Below, piece after piece: positions 9,470-49,633 of a stretch of DNA of 52,682 bases. Position 1 is the stretch's first letter, and every line of letters begins with the position of its first letter. The notes under the pieces were generated by a model. It was not told the origin of the DNA and did no database searches. It was given only the letters and a program-made list of their open reading frames with translations. A program made the position numbers and the translations under genes. The stretch comes from Nitrosopumilus sp. (lineage in GTDB: Archaea; Thermoproteota; Nitrososphaeria; Nitrososphaerales; Nitrosopumilaceae): NCBI RefSeq assembly GCF_025699255.1, contig NZ_JAILWA010000009.1:1-52682 (forward strand). The letters are read 5' to 3'.

Positions 9470-11203
9470 ATGACAAACGTAAAAACACTGACAATTCTTA
9501 TGACATCTATCGTACTTTCTGTTTCGTTTTCACAGGCTGTATATGCAGAATCTTATCAGGACAAAGCCGACTTTGCTTCTTCCTTGGAAGAAACACTTGG
9601 ACATTTCTGGGCACTTGAACAGAACCTTGATGATAAAAATGCGGAACTGGCATTGATTCATGCAACGCATCCAATTGCAGAACTGTATGACTCCATGAAA
9701 CCTGAACTCAAAGCAGCAGATCCTAACCTTGATGCGCAAGTTCAAGAAACATTAATGGAATTAAAAAACAGGGCAAACACCGAGATATCTAGAGCACAAG
9801 CTCAGCAAGCAATTGATGATGCAAAAGGTGTAGTAGCAATTGCACGTTCTACCGTTGTTGGAGATGAGTTAAGTAGTGAAACTGCATTCAAGGTAAAATT
9901 AATGCAGGTCTTACTTGAAACATCAATAGCTGAATATGGTGAGGCAGTATCTGATGGAGTAATTGGCGAAATGGCCGAATTCCAAGATGGTTCTGCATTT
10001 GTATGGAGATCTCAGCAGATTTTTGCTGAAATAGAGTCTGATGTTGATCATCATGCAGCTGAAGAGATTGAAGAACTATACGGAGATCTTTGGGCAGCAT
10101 ATGATGCAAGGGCAGATCCTTCACAAGTTGAAATACTTGCAGGTGGCATAATTCATGAACTTGACGAATCCTTAGAACCAAAAATAGAATTTGCTTCTTC
10201 CTTGGAAGAAACACTTGGACATTTCTGGGCACTTGAACAGAACCTTGATGATAAAAATGCGGAACTGGCATTGATTCATGCAACGCATCCAATTGCAGAA
10301 CTGTATGACTCCATGAAACCTGAACTCAAAGCAGCAGATCCTAACCTTGATGCGCAAGTTCAAGAAACATTAATGGAATTAAAAAACAGGGCAAACACCG
10401 AGATATCTAGAGCACAAGCTCAGCAAGCAATTGATGATGCAAAAGGTGTAGTAGCAATTGCACGTTCTACCGTTGTTGGAGATGAGTTAAGTAGTGAAAC
10501 TGCATTCAAGGTAAAATTAATGCAGGTCTTACTTGAAACATCAATAGCTGAATATGGTGAGGCAGTATCTGATGGAGTAATTGGCGAAATGGCCGAATTC
10601 CAAGATGGTTCTGCATTTGTATGGAGATCTCAGCAGATTTTTGCTGAAATAGAGTCTGATGTTGATCATCATGCAGCTGAAGAGATTGAAGAACTATACG
10701 GAGATCTTTGGGCAGCATATGATGCAAGGGCAGATCCTTCACAAGTTGAAATACTTGCAGGTGGCATAATTCATGAACTTGACGAAATCTTGGGAGTGGA
10801 AAATAAGGAATCCAACCTACTAGAATATGTCGAGAACATCCAAACATTACTTGAACAAACAAAAGTAGAGTATGCAAAGGGTGATACTGACTTGGCTCTA
10901 AGCCTGGCAACCAAGGCTTATCTTGACAACTATGAATTCTTAGAAGCTCCTCTAATTGAGATTGGTCAAAAAGAACTCATGGAAGAAGTAGAAGTAATGC
11001 TTAGAGAAGATCTTAGAACTATGATTAAAAACGGTGAATCAAGCTCCGCAATTAATACTCAAGTAGATGCAATTCTTGTCAAAATGAATACTATTGGTAC
11101 AGTTGTTCCAGAATTTGGTACAGTTGCTATGATGGTATTGGCAGTTGCAATCATAAGCATAGTTGCAATAACTGCAAAATCTAGAATCAGCCTAAGAGTT
11201 TAA
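9470..11203 (+). CDS. PEFG-anchored secreted protein with FTR1-like iron domain and perfect internal duplication
   Basis: The 577-residue protein starts at an ATG about 27 bases after a TTTAAATC box. It has a signal peptide (end near VYA-ESY), two identical 199-residue helical units (35-233 and 241-439, period 206), then a domain with AYLDNYEFLEAPL that matches the extracellular domain of the FTR1 permease. It ends with VPEFGTVAMMVLAV, a hydrophobic helix and basic tail: the thaumarchaeal PEFG-CTERM signal, thought to be processed by an archaeosortase. The units are rich in Glu, Asp and His (DVDHHAAEEIEELYGDLW), suiting iron capture. It is probably a surface iron-binding partner of FTR1, two genes upstream. 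The iron role is inferred. Confidence 0.78.
   Translation: MTNVKTLTILMTSIVLSVSFSQAVYAESYQDKADFASSLEETLGHFWALEQNLDDKNAELALIHATHPIAELYDSMKPELKAADPNLDAQVQETLMELKNRANTEISRAQAQQAIDDAKGVVAIARSTVVGDELSSETAFKVKLMQVLLETSIAEYGEAVSDGVIGEMAEFQDGSAFVWRSQQIFAEIESDVDHHAAEEIEELYGDLWAAYDARADPSQVEILAGGIIHELDESLEPKIEFASSLEETLGHFWALEQNLDDKNAELALIHATHPIAELYDSMKPELKAADPNLDAQVQETLMELKNRANTEISRAQAQQAIDDAKGVVAIARSTVVGDELSSETAFKVKLMQVLLETSIAEYGEAVSDGVIGEMAEFQDGSAFVWRSQQIFAEIESDVDHHAAEEIEELYGDLWAAYDARADPSQVEILAGGIIHELDEILGVENKESNLLEYVENIQTLLEQTKVEYAKGDTDLALSLATKAYLDNYEFLEAPLIEIGQKELMEEVEVMLREDLRTMIKNGESSSAINTQVDAILVKMNTIGTVVPEFGTVAMMVLAVAIISIVAITAKSRISLRV
9572..10786 (+). repeat. Tandem perfect duplication, 597 bp with period 618
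   Basis: Positions 9572-10168 and 10190-10786 are identical by my reading over all 597 bases, including third codon positions. The copies are joined by a 21-base linker (10169-10189), so the unit length stays in frame (206 codons). Identity at silent sites points to a very recent duplication or ongoing gene conversion. Confidence 0.9.
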
Positions 11204-42207: not shown

Positions 42208-42309
42208 ATGGATAAAGGTAATTCAAAACGCAAGCAAAAAGTAAAAGAGATTTTTGAGTATGGTTACAAGATTGCAACCATAGTCAAAATCATTATTTTG
42301 TTTTTTTAA
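42208..42309 (+). CDS. Possible 33-residue basic amphipathic peptide
   Basis: MDKGNSKRKQKVKEIFEYGY continues with a hydrophobic end (KIATIVKIIILFF). Its stop overlaps that of the Met-rich gene on the other strand. The sequence is not low-complexity, so it may be a real small protein of the element. The stretch 41822-42305 holds nothing else I can support. Confidence 0.35.
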   Translation: MDKGNSKRKQKVKEIFEYGYKIATIVKIIILFF

Positions 42310-42770
42310 GGATGCATTCCCATCATGTTGCCACCCATCATATGATTGCCCATCATGTTTTGCCATTGAGTATTGTTACCCATGTAGCTCATCATTCCCT
42401 GATGTTGCATCATCATGTCAAGCATCTGTTGTTGATATTGTGGATCGTTCATCATGGTGTTCATCATAGGTTGCATCATCATGTTCATGTGCTGTTGGTT
42501 ATTCATCATCATGTTGTGCATCTGTGTCATTGTTTCGGGATTGTTCATCATCATACCCATCATTTGTTGCATATGCTGTGGGTCATTCATCATAGTCTGA
42601 TGCCACTGGTTCATCATATCAGGATCATTCATCATTTGTTGCATTTGTTGAGGTGTCATTTGCATGAAATTATTTTGAGGGGCGGAGTTTTGTGTTATTC
42701 CATATCCTATTCCAATTCCAGCAAAAAACACACCAATTGCAATTCCAATAACTATTGATTGGTTTACCAT
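42306..42770 (-). CDS. Met/His-rich membrane-anchored protein, probable copper binder
   Basis: A TATA-like AATTATATTT lies about 26 bases before the ATG at 42770, so I start there (154 residues) although the frame is open to 42818. Residues about 5-24 form one membrane helix (VIGIAIGVFFAGIGIGYG). The rest is a repeat-rich outer domain built of MMNDPQHMQQMM-type units, with more than 40 Met and several His. Such Met-rich tails bind Cu(I) in known copper-handling proteins. Carried by the integrated element, it may give copper tolerance or capture, which matters to copper-dependent ammonia oxidisers. The copper role is inferred. Confidence 0.7.
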   Translation of the reverse strand: MVNQSIVIGIAIGVFFAGIGIGYGITQNSAPQNNFMQMTPQQMQQMMNDPDMMNQWHQTMMNDPQHMQQMMGMMMNNPETMTQMHNMMMNNQQHMNMMMQPMMNTMMNDPQYQQQMLDMMMQHQGMMSYMGNNTQWQNMMGNHMMGGNMMGMHP

Positions 42771-42881
42771 ATCAAAACTGGTACAAATATCAAATATAAT
42801 TAATTGGATGATGTTCATTTATGATTATCATCAACCGATAGACAACAGGCATAATTTTCAACCTACAACGCAACAGTACCG

Positions 42882-46014: not shown

Positions 46015-46407
46015 ATGAGTCTTTTATCAGTCGAAGATATTCAAAAGCTAAATGCAGCATGCAGTGCATTATCAGAAGAAGACAAAATTCGTCATGTTGG
46101 GGTAATCAACGAGTTAGGCAGGTTAGTTGCAGGAGGGTTCAAAAAAGGAGCAACCCCATTGCTTTCAGAAGATAGAATTAGAATGCTATACATGCAAATG
46201 CAACTTGATTTCAATATGAGAAGAGAGTTAGATGATGTTCTTGGTCCAATTGATTATATCGCATCAAGACGAACAAAGCAACTTATTATTAGTGTACCAA
46301 TCGGAAAAAATTTGGTGTTAATTTCAGCTGATCCTGATACAGATGATAAAAAAATTATCAAACGAGCTGAAGAATTATTTGATGAGATAACAATATCCAC
46401 AGTATAA
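46015..46407 (+). CDS. Roadblock/LC7-like small protein, thaumarchaeal type
   Basis: The 130-residue protein reads MSLLSVEDIQKLNAACSALS, VINELGRLVAGGFKKGATPL, MRRELDDVLGPIDYIASRRT, then strands KQLIISVPIGKNLVLISADP and a helix ending in EELFDEITIS. The order helix-strand-strand-helix with a central hydrophobic sheet resembles Roadblock-type folds. In thaumarchaea such proteins occur in many copies. The role is unknown; signalling with small GTPases is only a guess. Confidence 0.6.
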   Translation: MSLLSVEDIQKLNAACSALSEEDKIRHVGVINELGRLVAGGFKKGATPLLSEDRIRMLYMQMQLDFNMRRELDDVLGPIDYIASRRTKQLIISVPIGKNLVLISADPDTDDKKIIKRAEELFDEITISTV

Positions 46408-46447: not shown

Positions 46448-47071
46448 CTAGCCTAAAATACACGAATTAGACTCTGAATCATATACAGTTCCTGGACCAC
46501 ATTTGGAATCAGTCTCACCAGTAGAGTCCTCATCAACAATCACAGTTGGAGATGGGGAAATATCAGGAGACGAGCTACGTTCAAATGAATTATCAAAATA
46601 ACCTTGAGAATATCCTGCACCTAAAATAATCAATACAAGAAGAGGAATCCCAACAATAATTGGAATTTTTAATGGAATAGATTTGAATGTGTTTTTACTG
46701 GATTTTGGTTCAGTAGATACAATATTGTCACCTACTTCAAAAAGAGAAGAACCACAAATCATACAAAAATTTGCACCCAACGGACCCTTTTTTCCACATT
46801 TCCAACAATGAATTGTTTCTTGATTTTCAGGTTCATTTTCAAAAACTATTTCTTCATTTGAAGAATCATCCAAAGTTTGTTTGATTAGATATTTTTCTCG
46901 TAAACGTTTAAGATAATTTTTATCAGTAATCCAGATATTCTTATTTTGGATAAAAGATTGTTTGATGTGTTCTAATCTATATGCATCCCCAACACCTAAT
47001 TTCAACAGAGCGTTTACTTCATCGACTACATCCATGGAATCCATATCGTATATGCTAGGGATAAATCTCAT
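46448..47071 (-). CDS. Zinc-ribbon membrane protein with extracytoplasmic tail
   Basis: The 207-residue protein starts with a helical domain (about 10-65; DVVDEVNALLKLGVGDAYRL), a zinc ribbon CWKCGKKGPLGANFCMICG (about 89-107), one membrane helix (IPIIVGIPLLVLIILGAGY), and a short Ser/Pro/Asp-rich outer tail with CGPGTVYDSESNSC, a likely disulfide. The layout is that of small thaumarchaeal sensors or scaffolds. No enzyme motif. Confidence 0.65.
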   Translation of the reverse strand: MRFIPSIYDMDSMDVVDEVNALLKLGVGDAYRLEHIKQSFIQNKNIWITDKNYLKRLREKYLIKQTLDDSSNEEIVFENEPENQETIHCWKCGKKGPLGANFCMICGSSLFEVGDNIVSTEPKSSKNTFKSIPLKIPIIVGIPLLVLIILGAGYSQGYFDNSFERSSSPDISPSPTVIVDEDSTGETDSKCGPGTVYDSESNSCILG

Positions 47072-47393: not shown

Positions 47394-47546
47394 TTAGTTC
47401 ATAGCCATCAATAACTGGGTATGACTCTTATCATTTCTAAAGCAAGTATCCAGTCTTGATTGCAGTACTTTTAGATAGCAATCAGTAGAGCAACATCCTT
47501 TGTGGCCTACAAGATATGATTTTAAACAGATTTCACAAATGTTCAT
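47394..47546 (-). CDS. Operon 1 gene C: 50-residue Cys-rich protein
   Basis: MNICEICLKSYLVGHKGCCS continues with TDCYLKVLQSRLDTCFRNDK. CxxC, then CC-x3-C with a nearby His, fits a small zinc-binding fold. Its ATG overlaps the stop of gene B (ATGA, 47543-47546), and a GGAG lies 8 bases upstream. Last gene of the first micro-gene operon. Confidence 0.65.
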   Translation of the reverse strand: MNICEICLKSYLVGHKGCCSTDCYLKVLQSRLDTCFRNDKSHTQLLMAMN

Positions 47547-47647
47547 GGAGAAGCCTCCAAGTTTTGTTGTTTGACTTTTGAAATAAAATCACTAGTCATT
47601 TTAAGCAAGGTTTCCATTTGAGAATCTTGAACATGCTGGAAGATCAT
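47543..47647 (-). CDS. Operon 1 gene B: 34-residue LLKMT-motif peptide
   Basis: The peptide MIFQHVQDSQMETLLKMTSD ends with FISKVKQQNLEASP. The core METLLKMTSDFISKVK matches the motif of genes A, D, E and G. Its ATG overlaps the A stop (ATGA, 47644-47647) with GGAG 9 bases before it. Confidence 0.65.
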   Translation of the reverse strand: MIFQHVQDSQMETLLKMTSDFISKVKQQNLEASP

Positions 47648-47781
47648 GGGTAAATCTCCTTTGCACGTAATTTAATTTTCAAAAGGGTTTCATTTGTCAT
47701 CTCTAAGAGATTCGTCATTTCAGCATCAAGGAAATACTCTGAATGAGAATCAAACATAATAGTTTTTTGTGTTGTTTTCAT
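47644..47781 (-). CDS. Operon 1 gene A: 45-residue LLKMT-motif peptide
   Basis: MKTTQKTIMFDSHSEYFLDA is followed by EMTNLLEMTNETLLKIKLRA and KEIYP. It is the counterpart of gene D (44 residues) in the second operon: both have FDS near residue 10, the LLxMTN core, KIK and a KEI ending. First gene after the promoter block at 47803-47866. The leader GAAGAAAAATG is like that of gene D. Confidence 0.68.
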   Translation of the reverse strand: MKTTQKTIMFDSHSEYFLDAEMTNLLEMTNETLLKIKLRAKEIYP

Positions 47782-47802
47782 TTTTCTTCATTGTACTATA
47801 AG

Positions 47803-47866
47803 TTACAATGAATATAACCAAGGATTTCGATTAGGCATGAAATAGAACTCGAACGTATCGAACCTC
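47803..47866 (-). promoter_or_regulatory. Promoter/operator block of micro-gene operon 1
   Basis: The 64 bases match 49570-49633 at 50 positions by my count. Reading the minus strand: a direct repeat of GTTCG (seen on plus as CGAAC-N4-CGAAC, 47850-47863), a conserved GCCTAATCGA-like stretch, and the TATA box GGTTATAT, then a leader of about 30 bases to the ATG at 47781. Confidence 0.68.
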
Positions 47867-47994
47867 AATGAAATTCACCACACTTGATCAATTAGCAAGG
47901 ATACTCTGAAAGATCTTTGGAAATTTCCAATTCCTCATCTAATACTTTGAGATGAAACAGAATAGACTTGCTGTTAGAAGGTTTAATTTTTGAA

Positions 47995-48159
47995 TTATGC
48001 AATTTTCTCAATAGAGAGGATCAAGTCTTCATCTCCAAAACAGTGCTTATTTTCAACACAATTTGAGCATACTAACCATTGCGGAGTATATCTACCGCCA
48101 GGTGCAGGCTTGTAAGTAATCTTGTATCTTTTCTCGTGTCTATCTTCGCAACGATTCAT
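47995..48159 (-). CDS. Operon 2 gene J: 54-residue Cys/His zinc-binding-like protein
   Basis: MNRCEDRHEKRYKITYKPAP continues with GGRYTPQWLVCSNCVENKHC and a helical end DEDLILSIEKIA. Cys4, His8, the CxxC pair and Cys40 can form a zinc site. A GGAG lies 7 bases before its ATG, and its start overlaps gene I by 20 bases. Last gene of operon 2. The stretch 47867-47994 downstream of it holds no supported gene. Confidence 0.65.
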   Translation of the reverse strand: MNRCEDRHEKRYKITYKPAPGGRYTPQWLVCSNCVENKHCFGDEDLILSIEKIA

Positions 48160-48229
48160 CGTCAAGCTCCTTTGATAATTGTTCTACCTGACCAGTTAGA
48201 AGTAAGTAGAATTTTCTCACCATACTCAC
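48140..48229 (-). CDS. Operon 2 gene I: 29-residue FYLLLTGQ peptide
   Basis: VSMVRKFYLLLTGQVEQLSK then ELDDESLRR. The GTG start overlaps the stop of gene H (GTGA, 48226-48229); an ATG two codons on is the alternative. The core KFYLLLTGQVEQLSKE matches gene H. Confidence 0.5.
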   Translation of the reverse strand: MSMVRKFYLLLTGQVEQLSKELDDESLRR

Positions 48230-48300
48230 CAAGATATTTCCTCAGATAATTCTTCAATTTGACCTGTCAGTAACAAGTAAAATTGTTTAAAGAAGTTCAA
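48226..48300 (-). CDS. Operon 2 gene H: 24-residue FYLLLTGQ peptide
   Basis: The frame from a TTG reads NFFKQFYLLLTGQIEELSEE ISW. The TTG overlaps the stop of gene G (TTGA, 48297-48300), and GGAG lies 8 bases before it. Similarity to gene I, with different codons, argues that the peptide is selected. Confidence 0.5.
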   Translation of the reverse strand: MNFFKQFYLLLTGQIEELSEEISW

Positions 48301-48470
48301 TTGTACATCTCCTGGGTTTGTTGTTTTATTCTAAGAAGAACATCATTAGTCATTTTGATTAAATGTTCAATTTCAAGGTCATTTAGATTCTCACGGCCTT
48401 CATTTATCGAATGTTGTGCCATGAAAGAAATTTCGTTTTGTAGGCTTTCAAGAGCTAAAACAGTACTCAA
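48297..48470 (-). CDS. Operon 2 gene G: 57-residue LLKMT-motif peptide
   Basis: From a TTG that overlaps the TrmB stop (TTGA, 48467-48470) and follows GGAG by 10 bases, the peptide reads STVLALESLQNEISFMAQHS, INEGRENLNDLEIEHLIKMT, NDVLLRIKQQTQEMYN. The core HLIKMTNDVLLRIKQQ is that of genes D and E. An upstream TTG at 48494 is possible but lacks the SD. Confidence 0.62.
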   Translation of the reverse strand: MSTVLALESLQNEISFMAQHSINEGRENLNDLEIEHLIKMTNDVLLRIKQQTQEMYN

Positions 48471-49315
48471 TATAGTGCCTCTCCTTTTTCCCAAGATAGT
48501 TCAAATAATGAACTCATCATATCTACCAGAGTTTCAGAATCAGACCACCAAGCAAAAACTTGTCTTGTTGGGTGATTTGCATTTCGCATAAAGATGAGAA
48601 CCTCTTTTTTGTCATTTATTACAAAACACTTGTTTTCAGAATTAGAAGGCATTGCTCTAATCAAATCGGAATTCATGTCAGATAGGAATTCAGGAGTTTT
48701 GTTCAATGGTGAAACTACCATTTTCAGATTGGTTTGACCATCAGTTATCCAGTCAAATACATCAGAATGGTACATTCTGAGTAGATCAGATACACTGCCA
48801 AAGATTCTGAAATCATCGGTGCTTGAATCAACCATTTCTTTGATTTTGTTTGTGATCGGTCCGTTTCCATGCAGTAATTGCATTTTCTCAGATTTTGACT
48901 CATCAGTCTCTACTGCAAAGAATGGAATCTCTTTCCACATTGCAGACAAGGATTCTTCTTTGTTTGCCAAGGTATCAATTCTGTCTTGTTCTTGTTTGAC
49001 CAATGTTGCCACAGCTTCTGCCATGTCCATAGCAGTGTATTTTGTAGGATGAGACAGTTCTGCAACAGCTAATCCCATGTTTTGAAGAGAATTGACCAGA
49101 TGATATGTCTCAGTTCTAGGCAATTGTAGTGCTTTTGCTATCTCAGAAGCTGTCTTCGATCCATACTTGCCGAGATATATGAACACCTTTGCCTGACTTT
49201 TGGTAAGGCCAAAACTGATTAGTTCATTTTTAATTTTTTCAAGAGTTAGTTTATGCTTGTACATAGCAGTGTCTGATTCATTATCAAATAAGCTGATCTG
49301 ATTTTCAGAATTCAA
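48467..49315 (-). CDS. Operon 2 gene F: TrmB-family transcription regulator
   Basis: The 282-residue protein has a TrmB winged helix (about 28-95: LISFGLTKSQAKVFIYLGKY, KTASEIAKALQLPRTETYHL, NSLQNMGLAVAEL), a coiled linker (VKQEQDRIDTLANKEESLSA), and a C-terminal sensor domain of phospholipase-D-like fold (DDFRIFGSVSDLLRMYHSDV; KMVVSPLNKTPEF). The start TTG overlaps the stop of gene E, with GGAG 8 bases upstream. It probably controls its own operon and operon 1 through the shared CGAAC repeat. The ligand is unknown. It is the only large protein in either operon. Confidence 0.85.
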   Translation of the reverse strand: MNSENQISLFDNESDTAMYKHKLTLEKIKNELISFGLTKSQAKVFIYLGKYGSKTASEIAKALQLPRTETYHLVNSLQNMGLAVAELSHPTKYTAMDMAEAVATLVKQEQDRIDTLANKEESLSAMWKEIPFFAVETDESKSEKMQLLHGNGPITNKIKEMVDSSTDDFRIFGSVSDLLRMYHSDVFDWITDGQTNLKMVVSPLNKTPEFLSDMNSDLIRAMPSNSENKCFVINDKKEVLIFMRNANHPTRQVFAWWSDSETLVDMMSSLFELSWEKGEALY

Positions 49316-49416
49316 AAGGAATCCTCCGCAGTTTTAGTTTTTAGTTTGAAAAGGACATCATTTGTCATTTTTAACAGAAGATCAATTGAAGGGTTATCTG
49401 GGTACTGATATGTCAT
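49312..49416 (-). CDS. Operon 2 gene E: 34-residue LLKMT-motif peptide
   Basis: MTYQYPDNPSIDLLLKMTND is followed by VLFKLKTKTAEDSF. Length equals gene B (34). The ATG overlaps the D stop (ATGA, 49413-49416), and GGAG lies 9 bases before it. The core LLLKMTNDVLFKLK is shared with D and G. Confidence 0.65.
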   Translation of the reverse strand: MTYQYPDNPSIDLLLKMTNDVLFKLKTKTAEDSF

Positions 49417-49547
49417 AGGGAAATCTCCTTTGAATTGATTTTAATCTTCATCATGACATCATTTGTCATTTTTAATAATGACTCCATTTGAGAGTCTAAA
49501 ACCACTGAATTTGAGTCAAATGTTGGAGTTTGTTGTTCAATGTTCAT
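49413..49547 (-). CDS. Operon 2 gene D: 44-residue LLKMT-motif peptide
   Basis: MNIEQQTPTFDSNSVVLDSQ continues MESLLKMTNDVMMKIKINSK and EISL. Counterpart of gene A. First gene after the promoter block at 49570-49633. The core forms an amphipathic helix with Leu/Met on one face and Lys on the other. Confidence 0.68.
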   Translation of the reverse strand: MNIEQQTPTFDSNSVVLDSQMESLLKMTNDVMMKIKINSKEISL

Positions 49548-49569: not shown

Positions 49570-49633
49570 TTACAATTGATATAACCAAAGATCTCGATTA
49601 GGCGTGAAAAATGGTTCGAACCATGCGAACCTC
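49570..49633. promoter_or_regulatory. Promoter/operator block of micro-gene operon 2
   Basis: Near-copy of 47803-47866. On plus it contains CGAAC-N4-CGAAC (49617-49630) within GGTTCGAACCATGCGAACC (49613-49631), the latter including a perfect palindrome GGTTCGAACC. The minus-strand TATA box GGTTATAT lies about 25 bases inside. It also lies 40 bases before the plus-strand TATA box of the gene at 49703, so one protein bound here could affect both directions. Confidence 0.68.

Follow-up and report, generated by a model that had tools for sequence, protein, structure and literature searches.

Is a run of very short, interlocked reading frames around a TrmB-family gene a genuine genetic system, and what would its small products do? 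The question is raised by positions 47394-49547 of a 52,682-nt stretch of DNA from Nitrosopumilus sp. (RefSeq assembly GCF_025699255.1, contig NZ_JAILWA010000009.1, positions 1-52,682; referred to here as the window). A preliminary description, made from the letters of the DNA, had read ten chained minus-strand genes there, considered their layout too regular for chance, and supposed that small peptides are made in fixed ratios with a TrmB-family regulator and Cys-rich, zinc-like proteins. The frames proved to be real genes, chained by overlaps and maintained by selection, and nearly all the micro-proteins that they encode fall into a few families, carried by some marine ammonia-oxidising archaea, which probably serve to tune the regulator or the small, putatively zinc-binding proteins of the same operons.

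An overlap-chained gene set maintained by selection

All ten described frames were found at their places on the minus strand, in an operon A-B-C (operon 1, 47781-47394) and an operon D-E-F-G-H-I-J (operon 2, 49547-47995), with F encoding the regulator. As described, neighbours overlap at seven junctions by ATGA (D/E, A/B, B/C), TTGA (E/F, F/G, G/H) or GTGA (H/I), and by 20 nt at I/J; likewise, Shine-Dalgarno (SD)-like GGAG, GAGG or AGGA is located a few bases 5' of each internal start from E to J, and of B and C. The start of J is corrected to the ATG at 48159. The list of ten had overlooked an eleventh micro-gene, K (about 48002-47892), which follows J. In the window it has a TTG start and an 8-nt overlap with J, its exact start being uncertain, and in two relatives of the same genus (G035, G011) and in CSMAG_1990 its start lies in an ATGA overlap; no clear SD sequence was found for K.

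The layout was compared with simulated sequence by counting chained open reading frames (ORFs) of at least 24 amino acids (aa) with 1- or 4-nt overlaps and a required SD sequence. The longest chain on the minus strand of the window comprises six ORFs, and the longest chains in 60 windows simulated with an order-1 Markov model comprised one to three, so that the layout exceeds chance, as had been claimed. Gene order and overlaps are kept in three relatives of the same genus (G006, G035 and G011, the latter without H), in which orthologous starts interchange ATG, TTG and GTG at the same position, and the same gene types also occur in Nitrosarchaeum and in a third genus. The ratio of non-synonymous to synonymous differences (pN/pS; pooled Nei-Gojobori estimates with bootstrap 95% limits) is below 1 for every frame including K, with upper limits of at most 0.81, and substitutions are concentrated at third codon positions (448, 377 and 837 in total at first, second and third positions; the sequence pairs are not independent). 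Together with the chain simulation, these two results rule out chance or artefact as origin of the layout. The preliminary description had named conservation across genera with purifying selection as support, which is what the four-genome set and the gene types elsewhere provide, and a lack of conservation of the short frames in close relatives as counter-evidence, which was not seen: order, overlaps and purifying selection are kept.

Micro-proteins, regulator and promoter

Five of the micro-proteins (A, B, D, E, G) make up one paralogous family with a common helix-like motif, (I/L)xxLLKMTNxVxxKIK; G is extended at its N-terminus by a segment in which L, E and GRxxL are invariant. A second paralogue family, around FYLLLTGQ, comprises H and I; they were also tried as members of the motif family and rejected, scoring about 0-1.4 bits where shuffled sequences reach 8.9. 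In alignments, J follows the pattern CxxxH...WxVCxxC and C the pattern CxxC...CCSxxC. These spacings resemble zinc sites, in agreement with the Cys-rich, zinc-like proteins described earlier, and both proteins may well bind zinc. The core of K, FHLK(I/V)LDE, is conserved. A strong amphipathic helix in each peptide was considered and rejected, as only B, X (the peptide of locus X, below), H and I exceed most shuffles.

No Pfam or NCBIfam match was obtained for the micro-proteins (B and E not scanned singly; H and I scanned in Pfam only; K not scanned), and neither PHROGs nor PADLOC gave a credible match for the A/D-, C-, G- and J-type proteins (H, I and K not scanned in PADLOC); a weak match of G to a PHROG tail family (E 0.02) is likely due to chance, and for TrmB PADLOC returned nothing but helix-turn-helix domain matches. 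Solved structures yielded no credible relative for profiles of the motif, G, J and C, and a fold search with J no match.

The regulator was correctly assigned to the TrmB family: F scores 55.0 bits against the TrmB winged-helix model PF01978 (cut-off 25.6), and 16.7 bits, below the cut-off of 22.2, against the sugar-binding effector model PF11495, covering 7-135 of its 233 positions. An AlphaFold model of moderate confidence (predicted local distance difference test score, pLDDT, 73.8) has an N-terminal helix (17-34), a winged helix-turn-helix (wHTH), a long helix (98-128) and an alpha/beta C-terminal domain. With this model, the best Foldseek match was TrmBL2 (5bpd, E 4.5e-14, TM-score about 0.4), followed by TrmB and then NucT, a phospholipase D (PLD)-type nuclease, which makes the predicted C-terminal domain TrmB/PLD-like. 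By fold, the modelled F may resemble TrmBL2; against the NCBIfam TrmBL2 equivalog it scores 31.1 bits, below the cut-off of 530.

Both operons are preceded by a GGTTCG-N5-WTCGA palindrome upstream of a transcription factor B recognition element (BRE)/TATA-like element, in the order palindrome and block close to CCTAATCGAAATCCTTGGTTATATTCATTGTAAC, with about 38 nt separating the TATA-like element and the start. In a genome of another genus (G063), trmB itself heads the operon behind this promoter, with the perfect palindrome GTAGTTCGATTCAATCGAACTAC as operator. In five genomes, the BRE/TATA element occurs exactly twice per genome at 0-1 mismatch, both times at these operons. The strict operator pattern is nearly confined to them in Nitrosopumilus genomes; the variant at operon 1 of the window and the site of G063 itself escape it, and one match in G063 is unrelated. 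The two operons therefore have one promoter in common, which appears to be private to them.

A and D, the first genes of the two operons, begin MNttQqtxFDsnS, and TrmB begins MNxxxQixLFDNeS. The profile comparison of the A/D and TrmB tails reached 14.0 bits at best, versus 12.4 for the best of 3167 shuffles, and the DNA of A matches the trmB tail of G063 at 26 of 39 nt (codon-shuffle fraction 0.0006), with at most 19 for unrelated ORF starts. This is suggestive, though not proof, of a common origin of the first codons of A/D and of trmB, together with the promoter. The paralogy of the peptides with their single motif, the common promoter and the further motif copies elsewhere in the genome had all escaped the preliminary description. 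Features are listed in Table 1.

Table 1. Genes and promoter elements of the two operons (positions in the window; pN/pS with 95% limits where given).
Feature	Position	Strand	Basis
D: 44-aa motif micro-protein, heads operon 2, TrmB-like N-terminal tail	49413..49547	-	motif alignment; pN/pS 0.55 (0.35-0.81)
E: 34-aa motif micro-protein, ATGA overlap with D	49312..49416	-	motif alignment; pN/pS 0.38
F: TrmB-family regulator, 282 aa, TTGA overlap with E	48467..49315	-	Pfam, model, fold match; pN/pS 0.11
G: 57-aa motif micro-protein, extra N-terminal segment (LxxE..GRxxL), TTGA overlap with F	48297..48470	-	pN/pS 0.31
H: 24-aa FYLLLTGQ(I/V)E micro-protein, TTGA overlap with G	48226..48300	-	pN/pS 0.19
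I: 29-aa H paralogue, GTGA overlap with H	48140..48229	-	pN/pS 0.19
J: 54-aa CxxxH...CxxC micro-protein, likely zinc-binding, 20-nt overlap with I	47995..48159	-	alignment, model; pN/pS 0.45
K: 36-aa micro-gene (FHLKxLDE...DLSEYPC), 8-nt overlap with J, start uncertain	47892..48002	-	pN/pS 0.33
A: 45-aa motif micro-protein, heads operon 1, TrmB-like N-terminal tail	47644..47781	-	motif alignment; pN/pS 0.43
B: 34-aa motif micro-protein, ATGA overlap with A	47543..47647	-	motif alignment; pN/pS 0.24
C: 50-aa CxxC...CCSxxC micro-protein, treble-clef-like spacing, ATGA overlap with B	47394..47546	-	alignment; pN/pS 0.22
Operon 2 operator-like palindrome (GGTTCGCATGGTTCGAACC)	49613..49631	-	promoter comparison
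Operon 2 BRE/TATA-like element (TCGAGATCTTTGGTTATAT)	49579..49597	-	promoter comparison
Operon 1 operator-like element (GGTTCGATACGTTCGAG)	47848..47864	-	promoter comparison
Operon 1 BRE/TATA-like element (TCGAAATCCTTGGTTATAT)	47812..47830	-	promoter comparison

Distribution and possible functions

The motif profile matched 32 of 200 genomes of the family (25 of these at E < 0.001), and the G profile 40 of 300 genomes of the class, from 5 of 69 genera, all of family f1. The motif is confined to short ORFs and to Nitrosopumilaceae, where it occurs alone, fused to a J-type tail, or in tandem; with the G profile, no copy in a larger protein was found in the 300 class genomes, the ORFs being at most 110 aa long save one 154-aa open frame. 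J-type proteins were detected in 23 of the 300 genomes, a set overlapping that of G, the last few matches being weak. A TrmB of at least 59% identity is present in 17 of the 200 family genomes, and 16 of these 17 carry the motif versus 16 of the other 183 (counts uncorrected for phylogeny). Named carriers of this TrmB include Nitrosopumilus sp. ECS24A2, Candidatus N. salaria BD31 and Nitrosarchaeum sp. BD3.

The smallest unit observed consists of TrmB and one TTGA-coupled motif peptide (G027, G033 and a second copy in G006). The window's own genome contains two further motif loci: locus X, where a 30-aa motif gene stands alone, downstream of a Peripla_BP_2 gene, and locus Y, where a G-like peptide is coupled to a J-type protein with a motif-like C-terminal tail, in the vicinity of an aldo/keto reductase and a DUF6659 gene. 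Both were considered as members of a TTCGA regulon and rejected, the element being absent from their promoters. The g34 genomes have a 71-aa peptide in which two copies of the motif are fused, besides lone copies upstream of a gene judged by eye to be purE-like. CSMAG_1990 keeps nearly the whole gene set, with G placed in the A-C operon instead of after TrmB. The two extra loci, the g34 fusions and this rearrangement indicate that the parts behave as an exchangeable set. The fixed peptide ratios proposed earlier are, in the strict sense, not supported by this variable content, in which H is missing from G011, G belongs to the other operon in CSMAG_1990, and TrmB may have one peptide or none.

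On the reading that we tentatively prefer, the locus is a self-contained module of 11 conserved genes in twin operons, with TrmB in control of both operons and the co-translated peptides acting as feedback partners that bind TrmB and/or the zinc micro-proteins. The TrmBL2-like regulator would bind the TTCGA palindrome upstream of BRE/TATA and activate both operons, including the one that encodes TrmB, resulting in autoregulation. According to the available text of a review of the family (PMC4158304), TrmBL1 and Tgr activate from sites upstream of BRE/TATA, and the palindrome has this position relative to the TATA-like element in both operons, which makes activation the likelier mode. The motif peptides would act as interaction helices that bind TrmB and/or the J- and C-type proteins, and the levels of peptides and zinc proteins would feed back on TrmB, replacing a sugar ligand. 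A and D might, via their TrmB-like tails, compete with or cap the N-terminus of TrmB. Judged from the sequences, a role of the motif peptides as co-regulators is plausible.

Several observations weigh against this reading. Ten of the 25 strict motif matches come from genomes without this TrmB clade; TrmB also occurs without an adjacent peptide (L048, L049, L151, L155, L167); the peptides of loci X and Y are located behind unrelated promoters; and the motif helices, taken singly, are only weakly amphipathic. Furthermore, it is from linkage alone that we infer binding of the palindrome by this TrmB and not by another factor.

The peptides and zinc proteins might instead be their own effector, the motif helices pairing with each other and with J and C in a nucleic-acid- or protein-binding complex for which TrmB sets the dose without being a partner. 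J almost always stands directly behind a motif or H/I-like peptide, the motif is joined to a J tail at locus Y and doubled in the 71-aa peptide of g34, motif peptides exist apart from this TrmB clade, and CSMAG_1990 retains nearly the full set with parts in the other operon. Such an assembly does not account for the several genomes with TrmB and one coupled peptide but no adjoining J or C, nor for the resemblance of the A/D tails to TrmB. The motif-like tail on a J-type protein supports pairing of peptides with zinc proteins, and the loci with TrmB and one peptide, together with the common tail, support pairing of peptides with TrmB. Because both pairings have support, we rate feedback of the peptides on TrmB at somewhat below an even chance, and the effector assembly as only slightly less likely.

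A patchy conflict module autoregulated by TrmB, be it a toxin-antitoxin system, a peptide antimicrobial or a defence element, is improbable. The patchy distribution, the paralogous expansion and the autoregulatory layout would suit it, as would a broken TrmB in one genome: at G009:C38:2523-3360, the orthologue is interrupted by several in-frame stops, while motif peptides remain elsewhere in that genome. It is opposed by the lack of credible PADLOC or PHROGs matches for the A/D-, C-, G- and J-type proteins, by a search of viral contigs, in which no relative of this TrmB was found, and by the zinc-ribbon neighbour that TrmB retains in several genomes without the peptides, which indicates a stable genomic place. 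Least credible of all, and hardly to be entertained, is that the short frames are mere translational relays or leaders passing ribosomes along the mRNA, their peptide sequence being irrelevant, as the interlocked starts and stops and the SD sequences before internal starts might suggest: it is contradicted by purifying selection on the amino-acid sequences and by a motif that is conserved across genera and exists as a lone gene at locus X.

Some neighbouring and related genes were also recorded. The zinc-ribbon gene (PF13240) occupies window positions 46448-47071, downstream of operon 1, and its orthologue adjoins TrmB even in peptide-free genomes. A DUF6659 gene is found close to the micro-protein operons (46015-46407) and another close to locus Y (L086). 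A third J-type micro-protein, conserved in four genomes (G000:C1:123560-123718, L259; also L252, L253, L254), is located downstream of a CbtA-like gene, so named by its resemblance to the CbtA of the window, and of two small winged-helix genes, and precedes a predicted secreted protein and an ABC ATPase-like gene. The window itself contains a CbtA/CbtB cobalt transporter pair (507-1557; PF09490, PF09489); given this pair and the locus X peptide behind a Peripla_BP_2 gene, the micro-proteins may have a link to metals or corrinoids. Elsewhere in the window, a 577-aa ORF (9470-11203) that contains a long tandem duplication, near-identical in its copies, and a 170-aa Met/Gln/Asn-rich ORF (42306-42818) with a His-rich open frame on the opposite strand were noted.

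Relation to known systems

In family libraries, solved structures and openly accessible papers (subscription literature and preprints lying outside), no described system of this make-up was found, in line with the preliminary description. The regulator family is known; the micro-protein families and their arrangement appear undescribed. Ammonia-oxidising archaea are abundant, and little is known of their gene regulation and small proteins. The locus yields micro-protein families backed by selection and cross-genus conservation, of a kind easily lost in annotation because of their small size, and a regulator with a candidate operator. If the peptides do control TrmB, this would be a mode of regulation that we have not found described for this large archaeal regulator family. 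It is doubtful, though, that the locus represents a new class of archaeal regulation in which co-translated paralogous micro-peptides, and not a small-molecule ligand, control a TrmB-type factor, with some peptides combining the factor's N-terminal tail with a common interaction helix and so connecting it with zinc micro-proteins and with peptides encoded by single genes at other places in the genome.

The closest known counterparts of F are TrmBL2 and TrmB-family regulators of Thermococcales (PF01978; PDB 5bpd, 5box, 3qph), which gave the best fold match and are alike in winged helix, long helix, length (282 aa here vs 264 aa) and a palindromic operator (PMC4158304, as far as its available text goes). 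They differ in the operator, which is of TTCGA type here and TACT-N3-AGTA or the Thermococcales glycolytic motif (TGM) there, and in the N-terminal tail and helix that precede the wHTH only here; moreover, trmB is overlap-chained here to micro-proteins of a kind not met in that part of the review.

For the small proteins, the accessible portions of three papers offer partial parallels. The zinc-finger micro-proteins of haloarchaea (HVO_0758, PMC10716476) are likewise shorter than 70 aa with a likely zinc site, and carry two C(P)XCG motifs, a pair not found in J (CxxxH and CxxC) or C (CxxC and CCSxxC). The Methanosarcina mazei inhibitor of ammonium transport (PMC10714827) is, as the products of this locus may be, an archaeal regulatory small protein; it has another target and, in the text available, no TrmB module. 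Translationally coupled prokaryotic operons (reviewed in PMC12548453) have the same ATGA, TTGA and GTGA overlaps and internal SD sequences; unlike in the operons covered there, nearly all members of the present chain are shorter than 60 aa, and many are paralogues of one another.

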